Source of the DNA: a virus
Reading direction: 5' to 3' (one strand)
IMG/VR virus record: IMGVR_UViG_3300025674_000179
Location: 1-34,197 of that record
Length of the DNA stretch: 34,197 bases
Shown: positions 31,309 through 34,197 of the stretch, piece after piece
How positions within the stretch are numbered: position 1 is the stretch's first letter
Layout: each line of letters begins with the position of its first letter
Made by a program: the position numbers and the translations under genes
The notes under the pieces: generated by a model
Seen by the model: the letters and a program-made list of their open reading frames with translations, nothing else
Told to the model about the DNA's origin: nothing
Database searches by the model: none

Positions 31309-32124
31309 GTGGCTAGAAAATTTCGCATTTCTGAAATAAAACCTTTAATTTCAAATTTAGCACAAACCTCACATTATCAGATAATTTTTGGTGGGTTATC
31401 TGGAGATCTTTTACAATATTTACTATTGAGGGGAGTGACACCTTTTTTTGTTTCCGAAAATGCTGGATTGTTGTGTAACTCTACAACATTACCCACTTCA
31501 TCTTTTGCTACTAAAACTGCAGATGGAAATTATACTGGAATTCAAGAATCTTTTGCGACAAGTAGACTTTATAATGATATTTCAATGACTTTTTATGTGG
31601 ATAGTGATTATAAATGTTTAACTTTTCTTGAAACTTGGATGGAATATATTTCAAGTGGTTCTCACAATAATAAAAGTGGAATTCTTCCATCTATTCAACA
31701 AAATAATGGTGGATATTTTATAAGAATGCAATATCCAGAATTTTACAAATCTGATATGACAAGAATTGTAAAATTTGATAGAAATTACGAAAGTGAAATT
31801 GAATATCAATTTATTGGTTTATTTCCTACTTCAATGTCATCAATTCCAGTATCTTATGGTGGGTCAGAAATTTTAAATGTAACAGTTACATTTAAGTATG
31901 ATAGATATGTTTCCGGAAAATCCTTAAGTCTAAATTATTTTATAGGAGATCAGACTAATATTCTACCAAACAAAAGTGAAAGTTCATCAAATCCTGTTCA
32001 AACTCCTCGTACTGGACAGGCTTTAGGTATTCCTGCTGGTGTTGGATTTATAAGAGGAAATAATTTAATACCAACTCCAGGTAATCCAATATATTCAGCA
32101 ACAGGAAGAATTATTTCAAATTAG
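31309..32124 (+). CDS. gp19-like tail tube / baseplate protein
   Basis: 271 residues from GTG 31309; the conserved N-terminus ARKFRISEIKPLISNLAQTS follows at once and no ATG is near. YQIIFGGLSGDLLQYL, LPTSSFATKTADGNYTGIQE, DISMTFYVDSDY and the closing YQFIGLFPTSMSSIPVSYG, LNVTVTFKYDRY fit the T4 gp19 tube fold (PF06841), with about 60 extra residues, Pro/Ser-rich, at the C-terminus. The T4 tube subunit is 163 residues, so this is more likely a tube-like baseplate or hub subunit than the major tube protein. Confidence 0.72.
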   Translation: MARKFRISEIKPLISNLAQTSHYQIIFGGLSGDLLQYLLLRGVTPFFVSENAGLLCNSTTLPTSSFATKTADGNYTGIQESFATSRLYNDISMTFYVDSDYKCLTFLETWMEYISSGSHNNKSGILPSIQQNNGGYFIRMQYPEFYKSDMTRIVKFDRNYESEIEYQFIGLFPTSMSSIPVSYGGSEILNVTVTFKYDRYVSGKSLSLNYFIGDQTNILPNKSESSSNPVQTPRTGQALGIPAGVGFIRGNNLIPTPGNPIYSATGRIISN

Positions 32125-32160: not shown

Positions 32161-32880
32161 ATGCCATTACCAAGTGTTAATACGCCAACTTATGAATTAG
32201 AAATTCCTTCTCTTAAAAAAGTAATTAAATATAGACCTTTTCTTGTAAGAGAGGAAAAAATTTTAATTATTGCGATGGAAAGTGAAGATCCAAAACAAAT
32301 TGCTGAAGCAGTTAAATCGGTAATTTCAAATTGTATTTTAACCAGAGGAATTAAAGTAGATAAATTATCAACATTTGATATTGAATATCTATTTTTAAAT
32401 ATTCGTGGAAAATCTGTCGGTGAAGATGTAAGTGTTTTAATTACTTGTCCGGATGATGGTGCAACACAAGTTCCGGTGTTGATTAATTTGGATGAAATTA
32501 AAATTAAAGAAAATCCAGAACATAATAGAGATATTAAAATTGATGATACTTTAACTCTTAGAATGAAATACCCTTCTTTGAATGAATTTGTTAAAAATAA
32601 TTTTGTGGAAAGTGAAAAGTCATCAGTAAATGATACATTTGATATGATTTGTTCGTGTATAGATCAAGTATATAATGAAGATGAATCTTGGACTTCTACA
32701 GACGTTACAAAGAAAGAACTAACAGAATTTTTAGATAATCTTACATCAAAACAGTTTAAAGAAATTGAAAAGTTTTTTGAAACAATGCCAAAACTTTCTT
32801 ATGAAATAAAACTTAAAAATCCAAATACTGGAATAGAAAATGAGATAGTATTGGAGGGTCTGACAAGTTTTTTCGCTTAG
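32161..32880 (+). CDS. gp26: gp26-like baseplate hub protein / putative tail assembly chaperone
   Basis: 239 residues. TYELEIPSLKKVIKYRPFLV, EEKILIIAMESEDPKQIAEA, LTRGIKVDKLSTFDIEYLFL and NIRGKSVGEDVSVLITCPDD match the T4 gp26-like base plate family (PF12322). T4 gp26 is counted as a hub subunit or assembly factor. Here the gene ends in T TTT TTC GCT TAG and is followed two bases later by a small ORF in the -1 frame, then a tape-measure-like gene. That order, and the frameshift signals annotated next, suggest it works as a tail assembly chaperone producing a 298-residue extended form. Confidence 0.85.
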   Translation: MPLPSVNTPTYELEIPSLKKVIKYRPFLVREEKILIIAMESEDPKQIAEAVKSVISNCILTRGIKVDKLSTFDIEYLFLNIRGKSVGEDVSVLITCPDDGATQVPVLINLDEIKIKENPEHNRDIKIDDTLTLRMKYPSLNEFVKNNFVESEKSSVNDTFDMICSCIDQVYNEDESWTSTDVTKKELTEFLDNLTSKQFKEIEKFFETMPKLSYEIKLKNPNTGIENEIVLEGLTSFFA

Positions 32881-32907
32881 CGATGGCGCATCAAGATCTT
32901 GCGTCAT
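32853..32907 (+). promoter_or_regulatory. Putative programmed -1 ribosomal frameshift signal
   Basis: Four elements in proper order: Shine-Dalgarno-like GGAGGG (32853-32858); nine bases on, the slippery heptamer TTTTTTC (32868-32874) in zero-frame phase T TTT TTC; the zero-frame stop TAG two codons later (32878-32880); and, after an 8-base spacer, an 8-bp stem ATGGCGCA (32883-32890) / TGCGTCAT (32900-32907) with one G-U pair and a 9-base loop. A slip gives TTT TTT, then CGC TTA GCG ATG, entering the small ORF in frame. Confidence 0.75.
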
Positions 32908-33056
32908 ATTATAAAACTAATTTTTCTTTAGTTCAATTTCATAAGTATTCTATAACTGAACTTGAAAATATGATACCTTGGGAAAGAGAAGTTTATATTG
33001 GTCTTCTTCAACAATATATTGAAGAGGAAAATTTAAAAAATCAACAAAGATCTTAA
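32883..33056 (+). CDS. Small ORF, probable -1 frameshift extension of gp26
   Basis: 57 residues if started at ATG 32883, two bases after the gp26 stop. The sequence NFSLVQFHKYSITELENMIP, WEREVYIGLLQQYIEEENLK resembles the short second half of tail assembly chaperones (the T part of G-T type proteins: a helix with 'MPWxE.....LL..Y'). No good ribosome site at proper spacing: the only GGAGG is 24 bases upstream. Could be made by reinitiation, by frameshifting as a 60-residue extension, or both. Ends just before a late-like box. Confidence 0.8.
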   Translation: MAHQDLASYYKTNFSLVQFHKYSITELENMIPWEREVYIGLLQQYIEEENLKNQQRS

Positions 33057-33088: not shown

Positions 33089-34197
33089 ATGGCTAGTATT
33101 ATTTCACCACTATCAATTCAAAATAAAATTTCCCCAGAGATTTCTACGGAAGTTATTGTAACTCAACAAAACACCATAGTTGCTCTACAAAAACAGATTA
33201 ATAATATACGGTCAGAAGTTGGTATAATTAATTCTGGACTTCAAAATGTATCAAGATTACTTCAAGATGATTCTCTTTCAGAAAGACTAAGATTATTAGA
33301 AGAACAGAAAAAAGAAAAAGAACTTTCAGATTCTCAAACTAGAATTGGAAAAGAAGAAGAAGTTGAGAGAAATTTAGATTCTGCTATATCTAAACCAATT
33401 CAAAGTTTAGAACCAAAATTATCATCCACTTTAAATAATGTATCAAATTCTCTTAAATTATTATTTTTCGGATTTTTAACAAAAGGTGTAATAGAAGGAA
33501 TTAAAAATACTGCCAATTTTGTTATAAAAGGTTTTTCAAATATTAAATCTTTTATAACAAAAACTTTAGGTGTTATTAATGATACTTTTTCTTGGATGAA
33601 AAGGGGATTTACTGGTATTGCAAATTCAATAGGCAATGTTATTAACAAAGTTAAAGGTGTAATTTCAACTCTTATAAAATCTCCATTTAAGTTCATTTCA
33701 GATTTATTTAAAAAAGCTCAAGGAAAGATTGGAAATTCTGGTGCATCTGCTGTAAAATCGGTTGAAAGTTTTTCTGGTGGATTGTTGGATGATATTTTAC
33801 GATCTATAGGTAAAGCATCTAAAGGTGTTAGTAAAATTGTTCCTCCTGCTTTAGGTGGAGGTTTAACTTATTTTATGGATACTGCAATGGGTGAAAGTTC
33901 AGGTAAAGCAGCAGCAGGTGCAGTGGGAGCTGTTGTTGCTGGTGGTATCGGTGCAACTCTCGGTGCTCCTTTTGGTCCAATTGGTTCTTTTGCTGGATCT
34001 GTTGGTTTAGGTATGTTGGGACAAGATGTGGCAAAAAAAGGATTTGATTTTGTTACAGGTGTAGGAAAAAATATAGAAAAAAAATCAGAAGTTTCAACTA
34101 CTCAACAATCACCTATTTTACCTATAACTCCTTCAAAAAATACAAGTACTCAACAATCACCTATTTTACCTATAACTCCTTCAAAAAATACAAGTAC
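33089..34197 (+). CDS. Tape-measure-like virion structural protein (3' partial)
   Basis: Open from ATG 33089 (MASIISPLSIQNKISPE) through the window end, 369 codons so far. The earlier ATG 33085 is closed by TAG after two codons. Order: a ~110-residue coiled coil (IVALQKQINNIRSEVGIINS, RLRLLEEQKKEKELSD); alternating amphipathic and hydrophobic segments (LKLLFFGFLTKGVIEGIKNT); a Gly/Ala-rich membrane-like block near 270-315 (AAAGAVGAVVAGGIGATLGA); then a Pro/Ser/Thr repeat tail. Coiled coil plus hydrophobic blocks directly downstream of a chaperone-type gene pair is typical of tail tape-measure proteins (T4 gp29 equivalent). Family not proven by motif; a baseplate hub protein is the alternative. 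Confidence 0.65.
   Translation, partial: MASIISPLSIQNKISPEISTEVIVTQQNTIVALQKQINNIRSEVGIINSGLQNVSRLLQDDSLSERLRLLEEQKKEKELSDSQTRIGKEEEVERNLDSAISKPIQSLEPKLSSTLNNVSNSLKLLFFGFLTKGVIEGIKNTANFVIKGFSNIKSFITKTLGVINDTFSWMKRGFTGIANSIGNVINKVKGVISTLIKSPFKFISDLFKKAQGKIGNSGASAVKSVESFSGGLLDDILRSIGKASKGVSKIVPPALGGGLTYFMDTAMGESSGKAAAGAVGAVVAGGIGATLGAPFGPIGSFAGSVGLGMLGQDVAKKGFDFVTGVGKNIEKKSEVSTTQQSPILPITPSKNTSTQQSPILPITPSKNTS
34100..34197 (+). repeat. 48-bp coding tandem repeat, at least two copies
   Basis: Two identical 48-bp units, 34100-34147 and 34148-34195, with a third copy's first two bases at the window edge. Each encodes TQQSPILPITPSKNTS. In frame, so the protein stays open. Confidence 0.9.

Follow-up and report, generated by a model that had tools for sequence, protein, structure and literature searches.

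The window analysed here is the whole of the 34,197-base virus record IMGVR_UViG_3300025674_000179, a fragment that comes from a T4-like phage. Among cultured phages, Synechococcus phage S-SRM01 is closest to it by gp26, with 72.8% identity. The subject of this work is the junction between its gp26-like open reading frame (ORF) and the small ORF of 57 residues that follows, where, as judged from sequence comparison, a -1 slip very probably lets one gene of this T4-like cyanobacterial virus give both a short and a long form of a tail-helper protein. The two ORFs sit between a tail tube gene and a tape-measure-like gene, and the features of this region, with expectation values (E) for the family matches, are as follows.

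31309..32124, plus strand: tail tube protein, the gene upstream of gp26 (PF23849, E 5.5e-15; phrog_45, E 7.2e-41)
32161..32880, plus strand: gp26-like ORF, 239 residues, the putative short chaperone form and zero-frame product (PF12322, E 3.8e-75; phrog_150, E 1e-79; predicted N-terminal domain matches the HK97 tail chaperone 2ob9)
32853..32858, plus strand: possible internal Shine-Dalgarno-like stimulator GGAGGG, 9 bases before the heptamer (direct reading)
32868..32874, plus strand: slippery heptamer T TTT TTC, in phase (retained as T TTT TTN at 210 of 215 distinct junctions)
32875..32882, plus strand: 8-base spacer GCTTAGCG, which holds the zero-frame stop TAG at 32878-32880 (direct reading)
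32883..32907, plus strand: stem-loop of 8 base pairs with a 9-base loop, 32883-32890 pairing with 32900-32907 (covariation in its own clade)
32868..33056, plus strand: -1 frame segment including the ORF 32883-33056, the predicted C-terminal extension of the long form (phrog_634, E 2.6e-25; C-terminal part of phrog_150)
33089..34195, plus strand: probable tape measure gene, cut by the window end (weak matches to several tape-measure PHROGs, best E 5.6e-7)

By direct reading, the 3' end of the gp26 ORF is AGT TTT TTC GCT TAG, in which T TTT TTC stands in the X XXY YYZ phase and the zero-frame TAG lies two codons past it. The stem arms, ATGGCGCA (32883-32890) and TGCGTCAT (32900-32907), form 8 base pairs of which one is G-U. 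From the heptamer on, the -1 frame stays open through the 57-residue ORF, and a slip at this site would give a fusion of 238 + 60 = 298 residues with the predicted junction peptide LTSFFRLAMAHQDLASYYK. An earlier note, made from the sequence alone, had described the GGAGGG, the in-phase heptamer, the TAG, the spacer, the stem and the 298-residue fusion in this manner, and it is right base for base; its reading of the next gene as tape-measure-like is probable, given the weak PHROG matches listed above. However, from the window alone the heptamer is weak evidence and not clearly beyond chance, because AT-rich genes of this kind hold many in-phase X XXY YYZ heptamers (127 in the approximately 9,800 codons of the window's larger ORFs). 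The gp26 site is the sole in-phase T TTT TTC in the window and also the sole such heptamer within six codons of an ORF end.

The decisive evidence for the signal comes from the comparison of relatives rather than from the window by itself. Loci were gathered from IMG/VR by four single-protein queries and from phage records of several families, giving 215 distinct junctions, which fall into 90 clusters at less than 80% protein identity. Lack of the heptamer in relatives, or a shift in its phase, had been named in the earlier note as speaking against its proposal; what is found is an in-phase T TTT TTN in 210 of the 215 junctions (N is C in 166, T in 22, A in 20 and G in 2), lying at two main distances from the stop. 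The phages bearing it belong to Kyanoviridae, some Straboviridae (the KVP40 type, Ishigurovirus and vB_VmeM-32), Emdodecavirus, Pootjesviridae, Chakrabartyvirus and Busanvirus, and it is kept in all 30 clusters below 60% identity that were drawn from the heptamer-bearing set. If the run of Ts were simply the coding of a conserved Phe-Phe C-terminus in AT-rich genomes, then no frameshift would be involved, and it is the case that gp26 proteins often end in ...GLxxFF and that the genomes are often AT-rich. However, the synonymous choice is fixed: the P-site codon is TTT in 90/90 clusters, whereas TTT accounts for 65% of the Phe codons elsewhere in these genes, and the codon before it ends in T in 90/90 clusters (naive probabilities of 10^-17 and 10^-19.5, respectively, both of which ignore shared ancestry and are computed on heptamer-bearing junctions only). 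Further, the third base of the A-site codon varies among C, T, A and G and its residue goes from Phe to Leu (TTA, TTG) with the six Ts unbroken, which indicates that it is the nucleotides and not the residues that are kept, and T4 gp26, for which a separate long gene exists, has its FF as TTC TTT. An explanation by Phe-Phe coding is thus scarcely credible, and across the relatives the signal appears clearly beyond chance.

The frame into which a slip would lead is similarly conserved. Where the end is seen (89 clusters), the -1 frame runs open for 57-70 codons in 88, the third frame is usually shut within about 16 codons, and in an alignment of 32 sequences the extension peptide is conserved from FF onward, i.e. 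from the slip site. If ribosomes were to stop at the TAG and reinitiate at the ATG two bases downstream, then the small ORF would be translated by coupling as a separate 57-residue protein and the T-run would be incidental; the TAGCGATG geometry in the window and its own clade, as well as the annotation of a separate small ORF in many records, are in accordance with this. However, no ATG, GTG or TTG is present in the first 12 codons of the -1 frame in 30 of the 90 clusters (viz. those of Methylophilales phage Melnitz-1, Aeromonas phage ZPAH1, Vibrio phage vB_VmeM-32, Pseudomonas phage Milchi and Synechococcus phage S-RIM8, among others), although the frame is open and the peptide is conserved, and due to this, frameshifting is the only evident route there. 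The window has the same slip site as these clusters. Coupling also leaves the conserved T TTT TTN unexplained, the ATG of the window's clade sits inside a covarying stem, and the relative T4 makes the extension domain only as a fusion, so that reinitiation in place of frameshifting is very unlikely. In the records that have no start codon, the annotators begin the extension ORF too late or omit the extension; in vB_VmeM-32 (L086 after 4714) and ZPAH1 (L090 after 4696) it lies in a stretch without an annotated gene.

Two further elements flank the heptamer. Over 63 relatives, 97.6% of the cells of the window stem are paired, as compared to 17-52% for slid structures, but this alignment took in only relatives with the ATG-type stem and the percentage is biased upward for this reason, which leaves the compensatory changes as its useful part. 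There were 27 cells with a compensatory change versus 8.5 in shuffles; at one stem pair G-C has become U-A in 23 sequences and A-U in one, and at another pair C-G has become U-A in three. The number of stem pairs with changes on both sides was not beyond that in the shuffles (80/500). A hairpin of different sequence, with approximately 14 base pairs, follows the slip site at a similar place in S-PM2 (L099:1486-1540) and is far more stable than its own shuffles (z about -9.8). Upstream, a GAGG or GGAGG ends exactly 10 nucleotides before the heptamer in 48 of the 90 clusters; this is neither independent nor strong evidence, since the Glu-Gly pair specified by GAG GGN is itself conserved and GAA stands there in many relatives. 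The stem also bears upon slippage during transcription, in which mRNAs with an altered number of bases at the T-run would fuse the frames. While the conserved run of six to eight Ts could be viewed in this way, six Ts followed by a C is shorter than the runs usually needed for transcriptional slippage, the run is locked in the codon phase of tandem tRNA slippage in 210/210 cases, which slippage by a polymerase would not require, and a covarying hairpin, spaced as is typical of ribosomal frameshift sites, is in keeping with slippage by the ribosome. We consider an origin by transcriptional slippage extremely unlikely.

The protein matches indicate the kind of product that is made. The gp26 sequence matches PF12322 with 252.8 bits (curated cut-off 24.5), and the extension matches phrog_634 ('baseplate hub assembly catalyst', gp51) as well as the C-terminal end of phrog_150 (the gp26 family), from which it follows that some members of phrog_150 carry both parts. 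Sequence profiles of gp26 and of the extension gave no convincing solved homologue. For gp26 an AlphaFold model with a pLDDT (predicted local distance difference test) score of 87.6 was obtained, and the best structural matches of its residues 1-95 in VIA-align were 3fgx (Z 8.0; uncharacterised), 2ob9 (Z 7.9; the HK97 tail assembly chaperone, root-mean-square deviation 3.9 over 84 residues) and 3klu (Z 7.2; YqbN), with the next row at 4.7. The tail chaperones ranked at the top only in this second look and not in Foldseek, where no PDB match to gp26 reached an E below 0.39 and 2ob9 appeared weakly at E 1.8. The evidence from the predicted model for a chaperone fold of the gp26 N-terminal domain is therefore suggestive rather than conclusive, but combined with the place of gp26 ahead of the tape measure gene it supports a role of gp26 as a tail chaperone.

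The genes 26 and 51 of phage T4 are informative in this regard. Both T4 gp26 and T4 gp51 belong to PF12322 (gp51 with E 3.9e-52), but only gp51 continues into the extension domain and aligns with the full-length fusion, i.e. T4 gp51 is a gp26 paralogue fused to the C-terminal domain of the small ORF, which shows that the fused product exists as a gene. The end of T4 gp26 reads TTC TTT GAG without a slip site, and gene 25 comes next. Since T4 gp26 is without a slip site and a separate fused gp51 is present, T4 encodes the short form (gp26) and the long form (gp51) as two genes, whereas many relatives, like the window with its homologous gene and slip site, have one gene with a shift. The two T4 genes (L001:7803-9229) are divergently transcribed and about 20% identical over the aligned part. 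Within the 34-kb record, itself a fragment, a second fused paralogue was sought and only one gp26 match was found.

The observations of this work, viz. the signal, its phase, the open frame, the conservation, the covariation of the stem, the fold match and the gene order, lead to the interpretation that the junction, as judged by its conservation, carries a genuine and well-conserved signal for programmed -1 frameshifting in a tail assembly chaperone gene, and it is highly probable that the locus encodes this chaperone in two forms by such a shift. Most ribosomes would read gp26 to the TAG, giving the 239-residue short form, while in a minority the tRNA-Phe in the P and A sites on T TTT TTC would slip back by one base to TTT TTT, so that the TAG is bypassed and the 298-residue long form with its C-terminal extension of about 60 residues (the 'gp51' ORF) is produced. 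The slippage may be stimulated by the downstream hairpin and perhaps also by the upstream GGAGGG. By analogy with gpG/gpGT of phage lambda, coating of the tape measure protein would fall to the short form, and recruitment of the tail tube subunits to the extension of the long form. The lambda system is alike in that a -1 shift at a heptamer, late in the short gene and a little ahead of the tape measure gene, yields a short and a long form; however, no sequence relation to it was seen in family scans, the short form of the window has 239 residues, and the slip heptamer of lambda is G GGA AAG and not T TTT TTC.

The G/GT-like chaperone pair before a tape measure gene that the earlier note had proposed is thus well supported by the conservation, the missing start codons in relatives, the covarying stem and the predicted fold. 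However, its remark that T4-like phages have no established frameshifted pair cannot be upheld, as the identification of the T4-like tail chaperones is credited by citing papers (PMC10885494, PMC12846349) to Vladimirov, Gautam and Davidson 2022 (Virology 566:9-15). As cited there, this work includes poly-T -1 frameshift signals in the TAC-N (short-chaperone) genes of T4-like phages (PMC12846349) and the use of separate short and long chaperone genes by some of these phages (PMC10885494). The recasting of gp26 as a tail chaperone, although favoured by fold and gene order, is consequently not new, nor is frameshifting in T4-like phages, and the interpretation in the earlier note is partly supported overall. 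Compared with Vladimirov et al. 2022 as represented in the citing papers, what is contributed here is how widely the signal is conserved, the junctions that lack a start codon and the covariation of the stem. A literature search found no report of gene duplication of tail chaperones in T4-like phages. At the tail assembly chaperone locus of Vandenendeviridae and Andersonviridae (phage Adele), which also precedes the tape measure gene, a -1 shift was likewise deduced because a T-rich motif is conserved and the -1 frame has no interruption, but the families are different and the motif is GTTTTT (PMC12846349).

Several points weigh against this interpretation. The stem is clade-specific, not being seen in several other clades, and the Shine-Dalgarno-like element is not universal; among the elements that the earlier note proposed to compare across relatives, it is the heptamer that is conserved, while the Shine-Dalgarno-like element is so in part and is confounded by coding, and the stem is limited to its own clade. 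The window's own clade has an ATG two bases after the TAG, and due to this, reinitiation could give a separate 57-residue protein instead of, or besides, the fusion. The structural Z scores are in the range which the tool flags as possibly non-specific. Lastly, that ribosomes slip here, how often they would do so and what the short and long forms do are deductions.

If a frameshifted chaperone is nevertheless accepted, then the cyanophage 'gp51' ORF is most likely the tail of its long form and not a separate baseplate hub catalyst, in which case several records start this ORF too late or omit it. The old T4 hub genes 26 and 51 would in this manner be tied to the lambda G/GT mechanism, and a recoded pair in some phages and a duplicated gene pair in their relatives seem to serve the same job.

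In Vibrio phage K361 and Ackermannviridae (L088, L091, L096, L101) the junction reads ATT TTC ATT TAA or CTT TTC AAG TAA, without the canonical heptamer, and the -1 frame extension is still present; in L096 and L101 no ATG opens it at the junction. A non-canonical slip or some other mechanism is possible in these cases. One scenario, which we put forward tentatively and regard as somewhat more doubtful than probable, is that T TTT TTN frameshifting was ancestral across the T4-like phages in the wide sense, that the T4 lineage swapped it for a duplicated and permanently fused gene 51, and that in Ackermannviridae the canonical heptamer disappeared (ATT TTC ATT TAA) while the -1 extension persisted, its translation now depending on a non-canonical slip or on a different route. 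In IMGVR_UViG_3300049043_000112 (L019:1501-2391), two bases are gone at the slip site (TCTTTTTGG) and gp26 and the extension form one ORF of 297 residues, which may be a permanent fusion that arose in nature or may come from a sequencing error.
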